DNA of 63,763 nucleotides. It comes from Pseudomonadota bacterium. GTDB lineage: Bacteria; Desulfobacterota; Binatia; Binatales; Binataceae. A program made the position numbers and the translations under genes. Location: assembly GCA_021325355.1 (NCBI GenBank), contig JAJPHI010000025.1, positions 1 through 63,763 of the forward strand. Direction: 5' to 3'. The notes beneath the pieces were generated by a model. The model did not search any database. It was not told the DNA's origin and worked only from the letters and a program-made list of their open reading frames with translations. Of the stretch, positions 19,700-39,005 are shown piece after piece. The first letter of the stretch is position 1. Every line of letters begins with the position of its first letter.

Positions 19700-20860
19700 A
19701 TGAACGGCGATGACGGCCGCGACCCCGCCGCGTTCCTCGATCTGGTGGCCGGCGCGCAGAAGGGCCGACTCAAGGTTTATCTGGGTGGGGCGGCGGGAGT
19801 CGGCAAAACCTATCGCATGCTCGAGGAAGCCCACAGGCTGCGCGCGCAGGGCCGCGACGTGGTGCTGGCTTTCGTCGAGACCCACGGTCGGCGCGAAACC
19901 GCCGAGCGCATCCGGGATTTGGAGCAGGTGCCGCTGCGCGAGATTCCGTACCGCGGGGTGACGCTGCGCGAGATGGACCTCGACGCCATCCTGGCGCGCC
20001 AGCCGGAATTCGCGATCGTCGACGAGCTGCCCCATACGAACGCCCCAGGCTCGCGTCATAACAAGCGCTACCAGGATGTCGAAGAGCTGATCGCCGCGGG
20101 CATCAACGTGATCACCGCCTTCAACGTTCAGCATCTCGAGAGCCTCAATCAGGTGGTGCGCCGGATGACCGGCGTAGAGGTGCGCGAGACCGTTCCCGAC
20201 ACGTTCCTGCATCGCGCAGATCAGGTCGTCATGGTGGATATCACGGTCGAGGAGCTGCGCCAGCGTTTGCGGGAGGGGAAGATTTATCCGCCGGAGCGGG
20301 TCGAGGCGGCGCTCAAGAATTTTTTTCGCCCGGCGAATCTGGCGGCGTTGCGCGAACTCGCTCTGCGCGAAGTCGCCCGCGACCAGGGTCGGTTGCGCGA
20401 AGAGGCGGAGCAGCTCAAGCGCGAGGGCGGGCGCCGCACGCTTGTCAGCGAGCGCCTGATGGTCTGTCTCTCGGCCAATCCTGACGGCAGCGACGAGCTC
20501 CTGCGCAAGGCGGCGCGCAGCGCGGCGCGGCTGAATGCCAACTGGTTCGCCGTGCACGTCGAAACGCCGGACGAATCGGTGCAGAAAATCAGCACGGCCG
20601 ACTTCCGCGCCCTGCTGGATAATATCAATCTGGCGGCCGACCTCGGCGCCGAGACCGTCTGGCTCAAGGCGGACAATGTGGTCAAGGCTTTGATCAATTA
20701 TGCGACCGAGAACCGTATCACCCATATCGTGATCGGGCGCACGCGCGAGAGCTGGTGGACGCGCCTGCTCGGACGCTCAGTGAGCAACCGGCTGATCGCA
20801 GCCGCCAAAGACTTCGATATCGAGCTGGTCAGTCACGGCGAACCGGGAGAATCACGATGA
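19700..20860 (+). CDS. KdpD N-terminal cytoplasmic half encoded alone (KdpD/USP domains)
   Basis: 386 aa holding only the N-terminal part of KdpD, which is about 890 aa in E. coli. Walker A GGAAGVGKT is at residues 29-37. The KdpD domain continues through FVETHGRRET and DELPHTNAPGSRHNKRYQDVEELI. A universal-stress-protein domain fills roughly residues 250-386 and includes HIVIGRTRESWW. The membrane helices, GAF and kinase parts are missing here and are partly supplied by the next gene, whose ATG overlaps this stop (ATGA). An in-frame TGA at 19691 fixes the start at 19700. A GGAGGTGATC sequence at 19667-19676 lies too far upstream (23 bases) to serve it simply. Confidence 0.9.
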   Translation: MNGDDGRDPAAFLDLVAGAQKGRLKVYLGGAAGVGKTYRMLEEAHRLRAQGRDVVLAFVETHGRRETAERIRDLEQVPLREIPYRGVTLREMDLDAILARQPEFAIVDELPHTNAPGSRHNKRYQDVEELIAAGINVITAFNVQHLESLNQVVRRMTGVEVRETVPDTFLHRADQVVMVDITVEELRQRLREGKIYPPERVEAALKNFFRPANLAALRELALREVARDQGRLREEAEQLKREGGRRTLVSERLMVCLSANPDGSDELLRKAARSAARLNANWFAVHVETPDESVQKISTADFRALLDNINLAADLGAETVWLKADNVVKALINYATENRITHIVIGRTRESWWTRLLGRSVSNRLIAAAKDFDIELVSHGEPGESR

Positions 20861-22642
20861 AAACCGTTTCGCTCCGCTCACGTATCCGCAACGGTGCGTT
20901 GCTGATGCTCGCCATCGCGCTCGTCTTCGGCGCTTTCACCGTGACTTCGGTGCACCATCTGGGCGGCGCCATCCGGGCAACCCTGATGCGCAACTACATC
21001 AGTATCGAGGCCGGTCAGCATATGCACGAGGCGCTCTATCGCGCGCAGATTGCGCTGGCGAAGGGCGCTGCGGCGGCGAACCTGGACGAGGAGCGCGAGC
21101 TGTTCACCCATTGGATCAAGGTCGAATTGGGCGATATCACGGAAAACGGCGAAGGGCCGCTGGCGCGTCAGATTGAACAGCGCGGCGCGCTGCTGTTTGC
21201 CGCGATCGCTCGCGGCCAACGGCCGTCCGACGCGGAGTTCGCCGAGCTGCACGACTTGATCGATCGCCTGATCGACCTTAATCAGACCGCGATGTTCAAG
21301 GCCGACAGCCGCTCGATGCAGCTCAGCAACGGCTTGGCCTATGAGTACGCCGGCGGTCTCGCGCTGCTGCTGCTCGTCGGTATCGTGCTTTCGTGGACAC
21401 GCGCGCGGGCCCTGGCGGCGCCGCTCGCCGAGTTCGCCGAGCATCTGCGGAGCTTCAGTCTGCGCGGGCCCTCGGTCCGGGTCGGCCCGCAACCGCTCAG
21501 CGAACTGCAGGCGGTCGCTTCGGAATTCAATCGGATGGCCGAGCGCCTCGAAGAATTCGAGAAGCTCAACGTTGATCGCCTGATTTACGAAAAAGGCAAG
21601 ACCGAGGCGATTATCGAGAGCCTCGAGGACGGCGTCGTGCTGATTGATCCGAGCGGGATCGTCACGCATATCAACGAAGTTGCCGGAATTATCCTGGGGA
21701 TCGGCCGCGCGGAGGCGCTCGGCAGCGCCTTCGACGATCTCGACTCGAACTCGCCGCACTACCTGCGGGTGCGCTCCGCTCTGCACGGTCTGGGCGGCGC
21801 GGGGCCGGAGGCGGAACGGGTCGAAGTGGACTTGCACGTGCGCGGTCGCGATCATACCTACCTGCTGAAACCGGTGCCGCTGCGGCAGGATGACGGCAGA
21901 TTTTTCGGGACGATTCTGATTTTGCAGGACATCACCTATCTGCGCGACCGTGACCGTGCGCGAACCAATCTGGTCGCGACGCTTTCCCATGAGCTCAAAA
22001 CGCCGTTGACCTCGCTCGGGCTTTCGGCGGAGCTGCTGATGCGGCGCGGGCAGTGGGACGACGAGACGCGCGAACTGCTGAAATCGATCCAGGAGGACAT
22101 TGCGCGGATGCGGCGGCTCGCGGCCAATCTGCTGGATTTGGCCAGCGGCCAGGGGCCGGCGATTGCGGTGCAGTACGTGCCGACCGATTTGATCCAGCTC
22201 TTGCACGGCGTCACCAGGGGCTTCGCGCTGCAGGCTGAGCAGAAGAACGTCGAGCTTGTCGAGCAATACGCAGTGACGGCACTCGAGCTTGCGGCCGACC
22301 CGGTCAAGCTCTCATGGGTGATAACCAATCTGATCGCCAATGCCCTGCGCTACACGCCGGCGGGCGGGCGGATCGTTGTGACGGCCGGCCCGACGGACGA
22401 CGGCGCGCGGATCGAAGTGCGCGATACCGGTCCCGGAATTCCGCCGGAGATTCGCGAGCGCCTGTTCGAGCGTTATGCGCAGTGGAACGTCAATGGCGCG
22501 GAACCCGGCTCGGCGGGTCTCGGACTCGCCATCGCCAAGGAAATTGTCGACGCGCACGGCGGGCGGATCTTTGTCGCCAGCGAACCCGGTCAGGGTACGG
22601 CCTTTACGGTTGAACTGCCGCGCGCCGCGCTGGAGTTGGTCG

Positions 22643-22668
<26 letters not shown>
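20857..22668 (+). CDS. membrane sensor histidine kinase of the kdp locus
   Basis: 603 aa. Helix 1 (about 13-31) and helix 2 (about 161-180) flank a roughly 130-residue periplasmic sensing domain. A HAMP-like stretch, a PAS-like domain (IIESLEDGVVLIDPSG onward), HisKA with SHELKTPLTSL (His378) and a complete HATPase domain (NLIANALRYT, DTGPGIP, GSAGLGLAIAKEIV) follow. It is not the kinase part of KdpD, which has four clustered helices, but sits in its place and is coupled to the KdpD N-terminal gene. It probably phosphorylates the following NtrC-type regulator in response to K+ or osmotic state, with the KdpD half acting in trans. Confidence 0.88.
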
Positions 22669-23977
<1,309 letters not shown>

Positions 23978-24179
23978 TTAAATATCAATAAATTAGCTTT
24001 TACACCAAAGAATCGTCGCGCAACGAACTGTTATGTGACTAGTAGAGCCTGATTCGCGCGCGATTAGAGCGGAATCGGAGCGCTCAGATAAGCGATTGTA
24101 AAACGCGCACATCAACGGATATAAGCGCTACAAACTGCATATATCAAATTACAGCTTCCTAAAAAGTGTATTGTTGCTA

Positions 24180-24208
24180 TTGCGCGACAGCCACAATCCA
24201 GCCATAAA
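24180..24208 (+). promoter_or_regulatory. candidate sigma-70 promoter of the orphan activator gene
   Basis: TTGCGC (24180-24185) and CATAAA (24203-24208) are separated by 17 bases in an AT-rich stretch. Transcription would start near 24215 and give a leader of about 84 bases that includes the inverted repeat at 24241. Confidence 0.35.
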
Positions 24209-24240
24209 TATACGGCTGACCGGCATACGACAGTCTGGGC

Positions 24241-24261
24241 ATTTGGATCCCAACTCCAAAT
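24241..24261 (+). repeat. inverted repeat in the leader of the orphan sigma-54 activator
   Basis: ATTTGGA (24241-24247) and TCCAAAT (24255-24261) are perfect inverted copies with a 7-base centre, 38 bases before the start codon. It could be an operator for autoregulation or an RNA hairpin; it has no T-run, so it is not a terminator. Confidence 0.45.
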
Positions 24262-24298
24262 CAGGGGGAAACGCGGTCAGCGTTTTTTGGAGTGCTGT

Positions 24299-25480
24299 AT
24301 GGAGACCAAGGGGGAAGACCTGCTCGAAGTTTCGGAGCTCTGCCGTGGTTCGTATGAGTTCGGTGGCATGCTGGTTAAGTCGGCGGAGGACCAGCGGCTT
24401 GCGCGCACCATCGCGCGGCTCGCCCCGTATCGTTCAACCGTGCTCATCCAAGGGGAATCCGGCACGGGCAAGGATCTCGCGGCGCAGGCGCTGCACAAGT
24501 TCGGTCCCGACCCGGAGGGACCGTTCGTCAGCTTCAACTGTTCGAATCTGATTCCGTCGCTGGCCGAATCGCAGTTATTTGGACATGTCAAAGGCGCCTT
24601 CACGGACGCCCGCGAGGAGATGATTGGCTACTTTCGGTCGGCCAACGGCGGCACGTTGTTCCTCGATGAGATCGGCGAACTGCCGCTCGCCCTGCAGCCA
24701 AAGCTGTTGCGTACGGTCGAAACGCACGAGGTGCAACCGGTTGGCGCCGCGCGGCCCTGCAAGGTCAATATACGGCTGATCGTCGCCACGAATCGCGATC
24801 TGCGCGCGATGGTGGCGGCCGGAACGTTTCGTGCCGACCTTTACTACCGGCTCAACGCAACGATGCTGAAGATTCCCCCGCTGAGTCTGCGGCGGGACGC
24901 AATCGATGCGTTTGTGGGACACTTCATCCGTTTGAGCAACGAGCGTTACAAGAAGCGGATCGCCTACATCGCGCGCGACGCGCTCGAGCTGCTGCAGAGC
25001 CGCCCGTGGCCCGGAAACCTGCGCGAGTTGCGCCACGCGATCGAGGCAGCGGTAATTCTGGCGGAAGACGACCGGATCGACCTCAGCGCGCTCCCGGAAT
25101 CAATATTTGAAAGCGACCAGCAGGCGGCGGCGAGCAACGACTTCCAGTTTCTCGACGAGTACCGGACGCGCGAACCTTTTCCCGCCGTGGCTTCGGTACG
25201 CCGCCCGCTGAGCGGCGCCAGCGGCCATCGCCTTTACCGCGAGGATCACTATCCGCCGTCTGCGGATTCGGCGCCCGGCTCATACACGCTCGATGACGCT
25301 ATCAAGTCGGCGTTGTTGCGGGCGCTGCACAAAACCAACGGCAATTGCCATCACTCGGCGCAATTGCTGGGCATCTCGCGGTACACGGTTTACCGGATGA
25401 TGACGCGGTATGGTCTCGGACAGGTCAGGAATTATCGCGAGAGCCCGCCCGGCCTCGACCCGAGCCGCAAAGCTTCATGA
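24299..25480 (+). CDS. orphan sigma-54-dependent transcriptional activator (no receiver domain)
   Basis: 393 aa. A short N-terminus (about 45 residues) leads straight into the AAA+ domain: Walker A GESGTGKD (52-59), the GAFTDA variant of the sigma-54 contact loop, Walker B GGTLFLDEIGEL, and RPWPGNLRELRHAIEAA. A 60-residue linker precedes a Fis-type DNA-binding region ending HHSAQLLGISRYTVYRMMTRYGL. With no receiver, PAS or GAF domain it resembles PspF or HrpR-like activators, which are controlled by a partner protein or by their own level. The ATG at 24299 has GGAG 6 bases upstream. Its targets are unknown; the stop is 1 base from the convergent tRNA-Cys. Confidence 0.87.
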   Translation: METKGEDLLEVSELCRGSYEFGGMLVKSAEDQRLARTIARLAPYRSTVLIQGESGTGKDLAAQALHKFGPDPEGPFVSFNCSNLIPSLAESQLFGHVKGAFTDAREEMIGYFRSANGGTLFLDEIGELPLALQPKLLRTVETHEVQPVGAARPCKVNIRLIVATNRDLRAMVAAGTFRADLYYRLNATMLKIPPLSLRRDAIDAFVGHFIRLSNERYKKRIAYIARDALELLQSRPWPGNLRELRHAIEAAVILAEDDRIDLSALPESIFESDQQAAASNDFQFLDEYRTREPFPAVASVRRPLSGASGHRLYREDHYPPSADSAPGSYTLDDAIKSALLRALHKTNGNCHHSAQLLGISRYTVYRMMTRYGLGQVRNYRESPPGLDPSRKAS

Positions 25481-34709: not shown

Positions 34710-36935
34710 GTGGCTGCGGCCCAATCCGACCATGCCCTGAAAGCCGCCGAAGCCAAACGTCGGCGCCGGGAGCTGCTCGCGGTGGGCATCGCGTCAGCGA
34801 TCCTGGTGGCCTTCGTTCTGGCGCAAACGACGCTGCCGCCGCTCAGCTCGCACACTTCCCTGGTTTCGAATGTCGTCGTAATTCTGCTGTTCGACTTCAG
34901 CTTCATCCTGATGGGGCTGATGCTGGTGCTGGTCGGGCGCAACCTGGCCAAAGCCTTCTTCGAGCGCCGGCGCGGATTGATCGGATCGAAACTGCAGGCC
35001 CGGCTGGTGTTCGGTTTCAGCATCGTGGCGCTGGTGCCGAGCGTCTTTCTACTTTACGTTTCCGGCGCGTTTCTGCATTCGGATATCGATAGCTGGTTCC
35101 GGCCTGAATACGAAAAGGTGCTGGACGACTCGCTCGAGGTTGCGAAAGTTTACTATCTGCATTCGGCCAACACGGCAGCGCACTTCGCGCGCGTGCTGGC
35201 GACCGGAGTGTCAGAAAAGCAACTGCTGGAGCCGCAGAAGCGTCCCGAGCTGCGCCGCTTTCTGACCGAGGCGCAGCATCAATACGGTCTCGGCACAATC
35301 GAAGTCTTTGCCGAGCATCGCCGGCTCGTGATGCTTATGCTGAGCGCGCAGACCCCGACGGGTATCGGCGTGAGCCCCGACTCGTCGATCGTAAGCGAGA
35401 CGCTGAAGGGGCGCGCCGTGACCCGCACCGACCGCTTCGGCAAGTCCGATGTGATTCGCGGCAGTTCACCAATCTTTGCTTCGCCCGACTCGGACACGGT
35501 CGTCGGCGCAATCGTAATCGATTATTACCTGCCGCGCAGTCTGGCCGATCGTGCCGCGGGGATTTCGCGCGGCGTTCAGGAGTATTTCCAGTTGCGCATC
35601 CTGCGCCAGCCGATCATGCATAGCTATATCCTGGCGCTGGTGCTGATCGGACTGGCGGTCGTCCTGCTGGCAAGCTGGTTCGGGATGTATATCGCGCGTG
35701 GCATAACCAATCCGATCAAGCTGCTCGCGGAGGGAACGCAGCTCGTCGCCTCGGGCAACCTTAATGTCTCGGTGCCGGATATCGGCGATGACGAAATCGG
35801 TCATCTGATCAGTTCGTTCAATCGCATGACGGCGGATTTGCGCAGTTCGCGCGCGGAAATCGAAAGGCGCCGCCGCTATACCGAAACCCTCCTGCGCTAT
35901 GTTTCCGCCGGCGTTATCGGACTCGACGCCGATCATCGCCTGACCGCGATCAACCGCTGCGCCGAACAGATGCTCGAGGTTAAGGCGGCGCAGGCGCTCG
36001 GCTCGTCCTATGAGACATGGCTGCCGGCCTCGCTGGCGCGGCTGCTCAGCGATCATCTGCGGGCCGGTCCGCTGAATGGCGAGACGAGGTTTCCACTCAA
36101 GTTGAATCAGGGCACCGACCTGATGGTTACGCTGACGCCCTTTGAAGTTGAGAGCGCGACGGGCGAGGATCGCAACCTCGGCCTGGTGGTTTTTCTGGAA
36201 GACGTGAGCCAGATTGCGAAGATCGAGCGGATGGAAGCGTGGCGCGAGGTCGCGCGGCGCGTGGCGCACGAGATCAAAAATCCGCTGACCCCGATCCAGC
36301 TATCGGCCGAGCGGATCAGGCGCCATGCGGGTGGAGACGGCGTCGGCGGACTTATCGATGAATGCACGCGGACGATTATCAGTGAGGTTGAGGATCTGAA
36401 GCGATTGGTGAACGAGTTCGCCGCCTTTGCCCGGATGCCGCAGCTTAATCCAGCTCCGGCAGATCTCAATGCTCTGGTAGCCGAAGTGGTGAATCAGTTT
36501 CGCAGCGCTTATCCGGCGGTTGCGATCACCGCGCATCTCGAGAGCGCTCTGCCGTGGGTGGCCTTCGATCGCGAGGCGCTCAAGCGCGCGCTCGTCAATC
36601 TGCTCGACAACGCGATCGCCGCGGCAACCGGTATTGCGCATAACGGCGAAGGGCCGCAGGTCCGCATCACGACCACGCTCAACACCGCCAGCGGCGTCGT
36701 TATCGTCGCCGTCGAGGACAACGGACCGGGAATCGACCCGCAGTTGCGCAAACGAATTTTCGAACCCTATTTTTCCACCAAGAATAATGGGACGGGGCTC
36801 GGTCTTGCCATCGTCGCGAGCATCGTCACGGACCATCGCGGTTTCGTCCGGGTTTATGATCGCGCGCCCCACGGAAGTAGATTCGTGCTTGAATTTCCTA
36901 TAAAAGACCAGCCAATTGCTCACGCGTCTGCATGA
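34710..36935 (+). CDS. NtrY-like membrane sensor histidine kinase
   Basis: 741 aa. The layout is that of NtrY: three N-terminal helices (about 24-42, 50-74 and 93-117), a periplasmic sensor region, another helix near residue 310, HAMP (about 325-385), PAS (about 390-490), HisKA with RRVAHEIKNPLTPIQLSAERI (His near 522) and a complete HATPase domain (NLLDNAIAAA, DNGPGID, GTGLGLAIVASIV). The start is a GTG at 34710. NtrY normally pairs with NtrX, a sigma-54 activator; here the next gene, 54 bases on, has an NtrX-like receiver but it is joined to LpxC. The kinase therefore most likely phosphorylates that enzyme. Confidence 0.9.
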   Translation: MAAAQSDHALKAAEAKRRRRELLAVGIASAILVAFVLAQTTLPPLSSHTSLVSNVVVILLFDFSFILMGLMLVLVGRNLAKAFFERRRGLIGSKLQARLVFGFSIVALVPSVFLLYVSGAFLHSDIDSWFRPEYEKVLDDSLEVAKVYYLHSANTAAHFARVLATGVSEKQLLEPQKRPELRRFLTEAQHQYGLGTIEVFAEHRRLVMLMLSAQTPTGIGVSPDSSIVSETLKGRAVTRTDRFGKSDVIRGSSPIFASPDSDTVVGAIVIDYYLPRSLADRAAGISRGVQEYFQLRILRQPIMHSYILALVLIGLAVVLLASWFGMYIARGITNPIKLLAEGTQLVASGNLNVSVPDIGDDEIGHLISSFNRMTADLRSSRAEIERRRRYTETLLRYVSAGVIGLDADHRLTAINRCAEQMLEVKAAQALGSSYETWLPASLARLLSDHLRAGPLNGETRFPLKLNQGTDLMVTLTPFEVESATGEDRNLGLVVFLEDVSQIAKIERMEAWREVARRVAHEIKNPLTPIQLSAERIRRHAGGDGVGGLIDECTRTIISEVEDLKRLVNEFAAFARMPQLNPAPADLNALVAEVVNQFRSAYPAVAITAHLESALPWVAFDREALKRALVNLLDNAIAAATGIAHNGEGPQVRITTTLNTASGVVIVAVEDNGPGIDPQLRKRIFEPYFSTKNNGTGLGLAIVASIVTDHRGFVRVYDRAPHGSRFVLEFPIKDQPIAHASA

Positions 36936-36989
36936 TTCTCGATGGTCGAGACCAGCGGCGACATCGACCGACCGGAGGTAATTTAAAGA

Positions 36990-38249
36990 GTGAGCGCGAC
37001 CGTCCTGGTGGTGGATGATGAGGAGCGGATTAGGTCGTCTCTACGCGGTATCCTGACTGACGAAGGATACACGGTCCTCGACACCGGAAGCCCCGCGTTA
37101 GCAATGGAGTTGGTGGCCCGCCAGACGCCCTCGCTGGTGCTGCTGGACGTCTGGATGCCGGAACTCGACGGCATCGAGCTGCTGCGCAAGATTAAGCAGG
37201 TGCGACCGGATCTTCCCGTGGTGATGATCTCCGGCCATGCGAATATCCAGAACGCGGTCGCGGCGACGCGCCTGGGCGCCGCCGACTTCATCGAAAAGCC
37301 GTTTTCACTCAATGGCCTGCTCGCGATTTTGAATCGAACGCTGTCCGGCGAAGCCGCTCGCGAGCCGGCCGTGGCCGGGACCTCGGCGAACGGCGTCGGG
37401 CTTGGCGGCCGCGTGTCGGCGACGGCGGCGACGCGTCCGCAAAAAACGCTCGCGCAGCCGCTGGTGATTGGCGGTCACGGTTTGCACTCGGGACTGAAGA
37501 GCGGCGTCATTCTTCACCCGGCCGAACCCGACACGGGTATCATTTTTTCATCGCTGGCGGATCAATCGGAAATTCCAGCGCGTCTCGATTACGTGAGCGA
37601 GACCGGTTATAACACGACCCTCAGTCGCGGCGGCCATTCGATTCGCACCGTTGAACATTTGATGTCGGCATTGCATGGCCTCGGCGTGACCAATGCCTTC
37701 GTCAAAACCGACGACGAGGTGCCCGCGCTCGATGGTTCCGCGATCGAGTTCTGCCGCAGTCTCCGTCAGGCGGGGATCGTCGAGCAGGCGGCGCGGACGG
37801 CGCCCATCAGAGTCACCAAGCCGTTCACGATTGGCCAGGGCGCCGAATCGATCCGCGTCGAACCCGCCGACGTGCTGACGATTGAATACACGGTTGATTA
37901 TCCGGCACCGATCGGCGTCCAGACGGTCAGCTTCACGCTCGATTCGGCCGCGAGCTATGAACGCGAAATCGCGCCGGCGCGGACCTTCGGTTTCGTCAAC
38001 GAGTTCTCGAAGATGTCGGCAATGGGTCTGGCGCGCGGCGGCCGGCTCGACAATCTGATTCTCGTCGATTCGGAGAAGATCGTTAACACCACTCTGCGCT
38101 TCGCCGATGAGTTCGCGCGCCACAAGATTCTCGATCTGATCGGTGATCTTTATCTGCTCGGCCGTCCGCTCGTGGCACGTATTATCGCGGCGCGCACCGG
38201 CCACTCGGATAATCTCGCCCTGATTCGGCACATTGCGAAACTTCAGTAA
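36990..38249 (+). CDS. lpxC: response-regulator receiver fused to LpxC (UDP-3-O-acyl-N-acetylglucosamine deacetylase)
   Basis: 419 aa in one uninterrupted frame. Residues 1-118 are a complete CheY-like receiver: acidic pair Asp9/Asp10, phospho-acceptor Asp53, Ser81 and Lys103. An Ala/Gly/Thr-rich linker (about 120-150) joins LpxC (about 152-419). All LpxC residues are present: Glu222 and His223 in TVEHL (E. coli Glu78/His79), His378, Lys379 and Asp382 in RHKILDLIGD (His238, Lys239, Asp242) and His405 in TGHS (His265), with identical spacing between the last three sites. The enzyme removes acetate in the first committed step of lipid A synthesis. The GTG at 36990 has GGAGG about 11 bases upstream. 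The kinase gene ends 54 bases before it. Confidence 0.95.
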   Translation: MSATVLVVDDEERIRSSLRGILTDEGYTVLDTGSPALAMELVARQTPSLVLLDVWMPELDGIELLRKIKQVRPDLPVVMISGHANIQNAVAATRLGAADFIEKPFSLNGLLAILNRTLSGEAAREPAVAGTSANGVGLGGRVSATAATRPQKTLAQPLVIGGHGLHSGLKSGVILHPAEPDTGIIFSSLADQSEIPARLDYVSETGYNTTLSRGGHSIRTVEHLMSALHGLGVTNAFVKTDDEVPALDGSAIEFCRSLRQAGIVEQAARTAPIRVTKPFTIGQGAESIRVEPADVLTIEYTVDYPAPIGVQTVSFTLDSAASYEREIAPARTFGFVNEFSKMSAMGLARGGRLDNLILVDSEKIVNTTLRFADEFARHKILDLIGDLYLLGRPLVARIIAARTGHSDNLALIRHIAKLQ

Positions 38250-38270: not shown

Positions 38271-39005
38271 ATGGAACTGAAAGAGCGCGTCGCGTTGGTC
38301 ACCGGGGCCGGCAAACGGGTCGGACGCGCGATCGCGCTCGCTCTCGCGGCGCGCGGCGCCGCGCTCGCGATCCATTATCGAAGCTCACGCAGTGAGGCCG
38401 AGAGCGCGGTCCAACAGATTATTGCGGCGGGAGGGCGCGCCGCCGCGTTTGCGGCCAACCTCGAACGCGTCGCCGATATCGAGCAGATGGTTGCGCAGAT
38501 CCTCGAGCGGTTCGGGCGAATCGATGTGCTGGTCAACTCCGCTTCGGTCTTCTATCGCAAGCCGCTCGAGGAGCTGACCGAAGCCGACTGGGATATCAAT
38601 CTTGATACTAACTTGAAGGCACCATTTTTCCTGGCGAAGGCGGCGGGATTGGCGATGCGCCGGCAGGGCGCCGGCAAAATAGTCAATATCGGCGACTGGG
38701 CGGGCATCAGGCCCTATAACAACTATCTGCCTTACACGGTTTCGAAGAGCGGGCTTATCGGTTTGACACGGGCGCTCGCCAAAGCGCTCGCCCCCGAGGT
38801 CCAGGTCAACTGTGTCGCCCTGGGTCCAGTGATGCCGCCCGAGGACTACGATGCCGAGGAGATTGAGCGGCTGCGCCGTGCAACTTTGACCAGGACGCTG
38901 GGCACGCCCGAAGACGTGGCGCGCGCGGTCCTCTATCTGTGCGAGGGCGCCGATTTCACCACCGGCGCGACCTTGATGGTCGACGGCGGTCGCCTACTCA
39001 ACTGA
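38271..39005 (+). CDS. short-chain dehydrogenase of the pteridine reductase / FolM type
   Basis: 244 aa SDR with Rossmann motif TGAGKRVGRA (11-20) and NADPH-type HYRSSRSEA after strand 2. The catalytic region is NIGDWAG...YTVSK: Tyr155 and Lys159 are standard, but the usual serine is Asp142. That replacement, with the TGxxxRVG motif, is the mark of pteridine reductases (PTR1) and FolM, which reduce dihydropterins or dihydrofolate. FabG-type enzymes keep the serine, so a simple 3-oxoacyl-ACP reductase call is less likely. It lies 21 bases after lpxC and 20 before the QueC-like gene. Confidence 0.82.
   Translation: MELKERVALVTGAGKRVGRAIALALAARGAALAIHYRSSRSEAESAVQQIIAAGGRAAAFAANLERVADIEQMVAQILERFGRIDVLVNSASVFYRKPLEELTEADWDINLDTNLKAPFFLAKAAGLAMRRQGAGKIVNIGDWAGIRPYNNYLPYTVSKSGLIGLTRALAKALAPEVQVNCVALGPVMPPEDYDAEEIERLRRATLTRTLGTPEDVARAVLYLCEGADFTTGATLMVDGGRLLN

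Follow-up and report, generated by a model that had tools for sequence, protein, structure and literature searches.

According to the accessible text of a 2025 review (PMC12444477), LpxC is controlled through FtsH, LapB and YejM, is directly inhibited by LapB in E. coli and directly activated by MurA in Pseudomonas, and has its transcription repressed by the two-component system NtrYX in the alphaproteobacteria R. sphaeroides and C. crescentus. Loss of NtrYX raised lpxC mRNA 8.8-fold in R. sphaeroides, as given in the consulted part of PMC7240162. Here, we describe a gene in which an NtrX-type receiver domain and LpxC share one reading frame, downstream of a gene for an NtrY-type kinase, in a 63,763-nucleotide stretch (hereafter the window; contig JAJPHI010000025.1, positions 1 to 63,763 of the forward strand, assembly GCA_021325355.1) from a member of the Binataceae (Desulfobacterota; Binatia). 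Comparison across genomes indicates that the fusion is real, ancient and widespread, and strongly supports a regulatory reading of it. The architecture is apparently undescribed: searches of an open-access library showed no account of a receiver–LpxC protein, which does not prove its absence from print, and the accessible text of the review uses neither 'receiver' nor 'fused'.

As in NtrX, the fusion has an NtrX-type receiver with intact phosphorylation residues and is encoded after NtrY, but it is without the AAA+ sigma-54 domain and the Fis-type helix-turn-helix (HTH), and its output is LpxC. It resembles the enzymatic-output response regulators CheB, PleD and RpfG in carrying receiver, linker and enzyme in one chain; those regulators, to our knowledge, act on signalling molecules or chemoreceptors, whereas the output enzyme here catalyses the committed reaction in a biosynthetic pathway for the envelope. 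With LpxC itself it shares a full deacetylase domain of the LpxC fold and all catalytic and zinc residues, and it differs in its N-terminal receiver and in clade residues such as G172, K239, C255 and P305. LpxC is also joined to another domain in LpxC-FabZ (NCBIfam NF009667), but that protein combines two pathway enzymes rather than an enzyme and a signalling domain, and the window protein scores 200.5 bits against its cut-off of 465. In the MurA system of Pseudomonas and the LapB/YejM/FtsH system of E. coli, LpxC is likewise the control point for lipid A, including direct control at the enzyme level, but through separate protein partners rather than a built-in phosphorylation domain (PMC12444477, accessible text). 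An earlier note on this locus (the original prediction) had taken known LpxC control to act on protein stability, which is incomplete: the same text describes direct, enzyme-level cases (MurA and LapB) and repression of lpxC transcription by NtrYX. The degron given there for FtsH/LapB-type LpxC, LAXXXXXAVLA, is unmatched in the window protein, which ends ALIRHIAKLQ. In contrast to the fusion, NtrYX of alphaproteobacteria acts on lpxC through transcript level, as far as the consulted parts of PMC12444477 and PMC7240162 describe it.

Conservation and spread of the fusion

The placement of receiver and LpxC in a single frame is borne out by one open reading frame (ORF; Table 1) that matches Pfam Response_reg (105.6 bits, E 2e-30) and LpxC (293.9 bits, E 1.6e-87), with every residue named in the original prediction in place: D9, D10, D53, S81 and K103 for phosphorylation, and E222, H223, H378, K379, D382 and H405 for catalysis and zinc binding. 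The NtrY-like kinase said to lie 54 bases upstream is there as well. NtrX was the top NCBIfam response-regulator model for the receiver (126.5 bits; the full-length cut-off of this model, 600, lies far above), and the Pfam scan of the window protein returned no AAA+ or HTH match. Its AlphaFold2 model (mean predicted local distance difference test, pLDDT, 90.3; predicted template modelling score, pTM, 0.72) has two well-folded domains with pLDDT <50 at residues 123–138 between them, in keeping with the flexible linker predicted at 120–150. LpxC structures ranked first in a Foldseek search with this model, led by 1yh8 (Aquifex LpxC, E 6.5e-34), and the solved chains best matching the receiver were 4d6x (a Fis-family regulator) and 5m7n ('nitrogen assimilation regulatory protein'), both of which we take to be NtrX. 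None of the 60 chains listed in the PDB search spanned both receiver and LpxC, and no viral relative of the LpxC domain was confirmed in viral_contigs. The window genome (95% complete) yielded one LpxC, which is the fusion, one NtrY_N protein, which is the kinase upstream of it, and one LpxB; deacetylase activity of the fusion on UDP-3-O-acyl-GlcNAc is predicted.

LpxC was found in 140 of 148 genomes of the class, spanning 17 family codes, and 109 of these 140 loci were fetched. All 109 carry receiver and LpxC together, including the imperfect L059, where a contig end cuts the receiver, and L161. The 31 unfetched class loci comprise 25 with open frames of at least 410 aa and six of 232–309 aa, some or all of which contig ends have truncated. 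A sample of 297 genomes of the phylum, to which the class contributed 12, had LpxC in 274, the strongest matches lying mostly in frames of 280–400 aa. Re-searching 80 non-class genomes of the phylum, picked for weak-scoring, divergent LpxC, gave 46 with frames >400 aa; 45 of these had the receiver in frame, and in the other, L074, most of it falls in a different frame. Given how the 80 were picked, 45/80 is not a phylum-wide rate. A long frame alone was rejected as a sign of fusion: L107 (432 aa) and L108 (411 aa), both from the 297-genome sample, are without a receiver. Beyond the phylum, the fusion occurs in 51 of 60 Nitrospinota genomes (in 48 as receiver and LpxC matches in a same-length frame on one contig, in three as one match across both), the other nine giving no match (five), a receiver match alone (one) or an LpxC match alone (three). 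It was also found in 8/80 Nitrospirota and 3/119 Acidobacteriota genomes, and a scan of named records gave 12 fused proteins among the 80 loci kept, among the matches listed; fused records are named for Desulfomonile, a Thermodesulfovibrionia, Holophagae, Thermoanaerobaculales, Terriglobia and Nitrospinota metagenome-assembled genomes. Chance or an assembly artefact is ruled out by the 109/109 fetched class loci together with the other phyla carrying the fusion; by sequence comparison, the architecture is old and widespread.

A few copies are broken: L161 has an in-frame TGA inside LpxC, and the receiver is partly (L090) or mostly (L074) out of frame, either through assembly error or through decay. 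One genome (G415) holds a second, standalone LpxC (L032) that groups with Nitrospira in the tree and is probably contamination of the assembly.

Conservation was scored over 154 fused proteins (109 class and 45 non-class). D9 and D10 are kept in 152 of the 153 aligned, as is D53, which is present in all 152 that are in frame there; the D53 exception is L090, where the 5′ half of the receiver is out of frame. K103 is found in 154/154, and S, T or C occupies position 81. No variation is seen at the six LpxC residues, either in the 154 fused proteins or in the 46 rows without a detected receiver. All eleven residues, S81 included, recur without exception in another set of 29 fused proteins, taken from Nitrospinota, Nitrospirota and Acidobacteriota genomes as well as the named records and for the most part belonging to other phyla. 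On the kinase side, the predicted phospho-His is H in all 112 ungapped sequences of 114 kinases, two being gapped (alignment column counts). Fourteen LpxC positions distinguish 87 fused from 62 standalone rows, among them G172 (87/87 fused), K239 (86/87; E or D in 49 of the 62 standalone LpxC), C255 (86/87) and P305 (83/87). By the same kind of test, the 19 fused and 12 NtrX receivers compared are told apart by a single column, and the fused receiver has thus stayed NtrX-like.

Probable descent from NtrX

The fused receiver shares 45–53% identity with 12 NtrX receivers taken from related genomes, and the fusion seems, from such comparisons, to be a descendant of NtrX in which LpxC has replaced the transcription output. 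This amends the original prediction, in which the kinase lay where NtrX would normally follow: NtrY is indeed directly upstream, but the statement was incomplete, since the place of NtrX is apparently taken by its own descendant, the fusion. In the LpxC tree (quick search), a single branch (Shimodaira–Hasegawa-like approximate likelihood ratio test, SH-aLRT, 100) separates 87 fused proteins from 62 standalone rows. Several independent fusions are not supported, as this tree requires one change. The seven Nitrospirota sequences are less surely placed, being on a long branch (0.81).

Three-domain relatives, with Response_reg, Sigma54_activat, AAA_lid and LpxC in one protein, look like visible intermediates on the way from transcription factor to enzyme regulator. 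The sigma-54 activator motifs known as GAFTGA, Walker A and B and the arginine finger fare unequally in them: in 20 such proteins (two from the same genome), GAFTGA, the Walker B DE and the full arginine-finger motif are each kept in 0/20 and the Walker A GK in 20/20, while all 12 NtrX compared, whose genomes encode LpxC separately, keep every one of these motifs, two with GAFTGA as GSFTGA. A 42-row tree of receiver plus LpxC places at least three changes between three- and two-domain states on well-supported branches; the root of the fused clade is unresolved in the tree, so the number of AAA+ losses is not fixed. Within Nitrospinota, internal loss of AAA+ is the likeliest route, because the two-domain L361 is nested within three-domain proteins (100/100). 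Gain of AAA+ is disfavoured there by the same nesting and by an AAA+ that is both NtrX-like and decayed.

In 12 of 20 stretches around a standalone lpxC, this gene, NtrY and NtrX lie within a few kb of each other, seven of the 12 with DUF4390 between and one (L291) with NtrX on the other strand; six of the 20 stretches had been preselected for a nearby kinase, and of the other 14, six show the clustering. Because separate lpxC so often stands beside ntrYX in related genomes, the alphaproteobacterial link between NtrYX and lpxC transcript suggests itself as part of an older functional association, and this transcript link, as reported in the consulted part of PMC7240162, is independent support for an association of NtrYX with LpxC.

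Of the 154 fused loci, 114 have NtrY immediately before the fusion, 106/109 in the class and 8/45 outside it; the three class loci without it (L059, L165 and L185) are at contig ends with at most 144 bases upstream. NtrY was sought in the 37 non-class fused genomes that have no adjoining kinase and in 10 named genomes, and was found in 46 of these 47 (36/37 phylum genomes), the miss being G239, which is 68% complete. Among 30 fetched NtrY loci (one pair from the same genome), one stands beside NtrX (L336, in G285) and one beside the fusion (L319); the others have neither within a flank of ~1.5 kb, some stretches stopping at contig ends. G433 and G436, in which an NtrX-type receiver also stands beside NtrY, are outside these 30. 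A receiver profile (A3) run on 70 genomes gave 138.7–183.2 bits for NtrX-type receivers and ≤131.7 for others. Exactly one NtrX-type receiver, the fused one, is present in 58 of 61 fused genomes, none of 18 class genomes tested has a separate one, and nine genomes with separate LpxC have one each. In the window genome, none of the 13 sigma-54 activators examined (>135 bits) has an NtrX-type receiver. In Nitrospinota the receiver match sits in the LpxC frame in 48 genomes, with no further receiver among the matches listed at E 1e-45. If the reading holds, the fusion is the only output of NtrYX in the whole class and in most of Nitrospinota (51/60 genomes with the fusion).

Many genomes, with or without the fusion, have a DUF4390 gene immediately before NtrY (L203, L281–L283, L285, L286, L290, L292 and many of L320–L348), and its product is a candidate NtrY partner. 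In one Acidobacteriota locus (L366, in G525), genes for a receiver–sigma-54 regulator and a kinase lie upstream of the fusion.

Proposed control of LpxC and rival explanations

Comparison lends strong support to control of LpxC by an NtrY-type kinase acting via the fused receiver: a separate NtrX is missing from most fused genomes tested, NtrY persists even where unlinked, the phosphorylation residues are near-invariant and AAA+ has decayed in the three-domain relatives. The original prediction is partly supported, with two of its points, on the place of NtrX and on known LpxC control, corrected. We picture NtrY sensing an envelope or redox signal (a guess) and autophosphorylating on His520; the phosphate would then pass to Asp53 of the receiver, whose change of state would alter LpxC output directly, within the same polypeptide. 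Phosphotransfer from NtrY to Asp53 with LpxC as the direct output is, on present comparisons, quite probable; the transfer itself, the direction of its effect and the signal are what we infer. As to mode, CheB is a chemotaxis enzyme in which a tethered receiver gates the catalytic domain, and by analogy the receiver here could restrain or gate LpxC, with phosphorylation changing that restraint; this is the likeliest single mode and still a tentative one, with alternatives in which the receiver dimerises the protein, places it at the membrane or controls its turnover. For the whole sequence of events, we lean towards a history that began with fusion of NtrX to LpxC; decay of the sigma-54 machinery and then its repeated deletion followed, and NtrY turned into a sensor that governs flux into lipid A through phosphorylation of the enzyme at the committed step. 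If true, this would be a direct two-component phosphorelay onto an enzyme of envelope biosynthesis with no gene expression step, and would explain lipid A control without an E. coli-type C-terminal degron in large Gram-negative groups.

Several observations weigh against this reading. No kinase adjoins the fusion in 37 of the 45 non-class loci, and three genomes (G285, G433 and G436) hold NtrX as well as the fusion, with an NtrX-type receiver beside NtrY, which may serve NtrX there instead. Among seven Nitrospirota genomes with a divergent fusion (L349–L355), an NtrX-type receiver apart from the fusion is listed in six and an unfused LpxC in four, so that the fusion may be an accessory second enzyme in them. 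The linker is disordered in the AlphaFold2 model and no fixed interface between receiver and LpxC is evident; the window protein departs from the fused-clade consensus at 4 of the 14 marker positions, and these residues may mark ancestry only, or an interface. Finally, the effect of NtrYX on lpxC in R. sphaeroides was judged indirect, because no NtrX binding site was found upstream of lpxC (PMC7240162, consulted part).

Phosphorylation might instead set the amount of LpxC rather than its activity, with the receiver either binding a protease adaptor or itself acting as the degron. Receiver-type protease adaptors have a precedent in RssB, and since the window protein is without an E. coli-type C-terminal degron, a control point elsewhere would be needed; the fused proteins end 10–34 residues past the last zinc His (153/154, motif found). 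E. coli LpxC is itself under regulated proteolysis (PMC12444477, accessible text). Against this, no protease adaptor was identified, and no search was aimed at one, and the domain order and linker are equally like those of enzymatic response regulators; we regard this explanation as fairly unlikely. A receiver serving localisation or complex formation, by tethering LpxC to membrane-bound NtrY or by dimerising it with phosphorylation secondary, would suit the flexible linker and has a parallel in the suggestion, in the same accessible text, that Ght places Neisseria LpxC at the inner membrane. Tethering alone, however, needs no near-invariant D9, D10, D53 and K103, which are seen in the window's phylum, Nitrospinota, Nitrospirota and Acidobacteriota, and we hold this explanation to be unlikely.

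A retained transcription role, for instance in binding DNA or sigma-54 with LpxC as a passenger, would account for the Walker A GK kept throughout the three-domain relatives and for the AAA lid in all nine three-domain proteins scanned (a tenth, L079, is two-domain). It is highly improbable given the other motifs, each at 0/20 in those same forms, the absence of any AAA+ or HTH match from the window protein, and an LpxC domain that is the sole copy found in the window genome and has all its catalytic residues. Equally hard to credit is a chance fusion without regulatory meaning, in which the receiver is an inert relic: it would be compatible with a functional reading drawn entirely from comparison, but it sits poorly with a receiver active site near-invariant over 152–154 proteins and 29 more, an apparent single origin, a wide spread and the retention of NtrY.

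The window locus and its neighbours

Table 1. Kinase and fusion gene in the window, with their domains and key codons.
Feature	Position	Strand	Basis
NtrY-type membrane sensor histidine kinase, 741 aa	34710..36935	+	Pfam NtrY_N, HAMP, HisKA, HATPase_c
His520 codon, predicted phospho-His of the kinase	36267..36269	+	Column conservation among relatives
54-base spacer, kinase to fusion gene	36936..36989	+	ORF coordinates
REC-LpxC fusion gene, 419 aa, GTG start	36990..38249	+	Single ORF, Pfam and NCBIfam
NtrX-type receiver domain, aa 5-114	37002..37331	+	Pfam Response_reg; NCBIfam NtrX
Asp53 codon, predicted phospho-acceptor	37146..37148	+	Conserved Asp in fused proteins
Flexible linker, aa 121-150	37350..37439	+	AlphaFold2 pLDDT <50 at aa 123-138
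LpxC deacetylase domain, aa 151-416	37440..38237	+	Pfam LpxC; Foldseek 1yh8

The DUF4390 gene common upstream of NtrY in relatives does not precede the window kinase; a DUF2905 gene stands in that place. A short-chain dehydrogenase gene (38271–39005) begins 22 bases past the fusion gene and is perhaps on one transcript with it. Elsewhere in the window (20755–25480), a second kinase (PAS, HisKA, HATPase), a receiver–sigma-54–HTH regulator and another sigma-54 activator lie in series.

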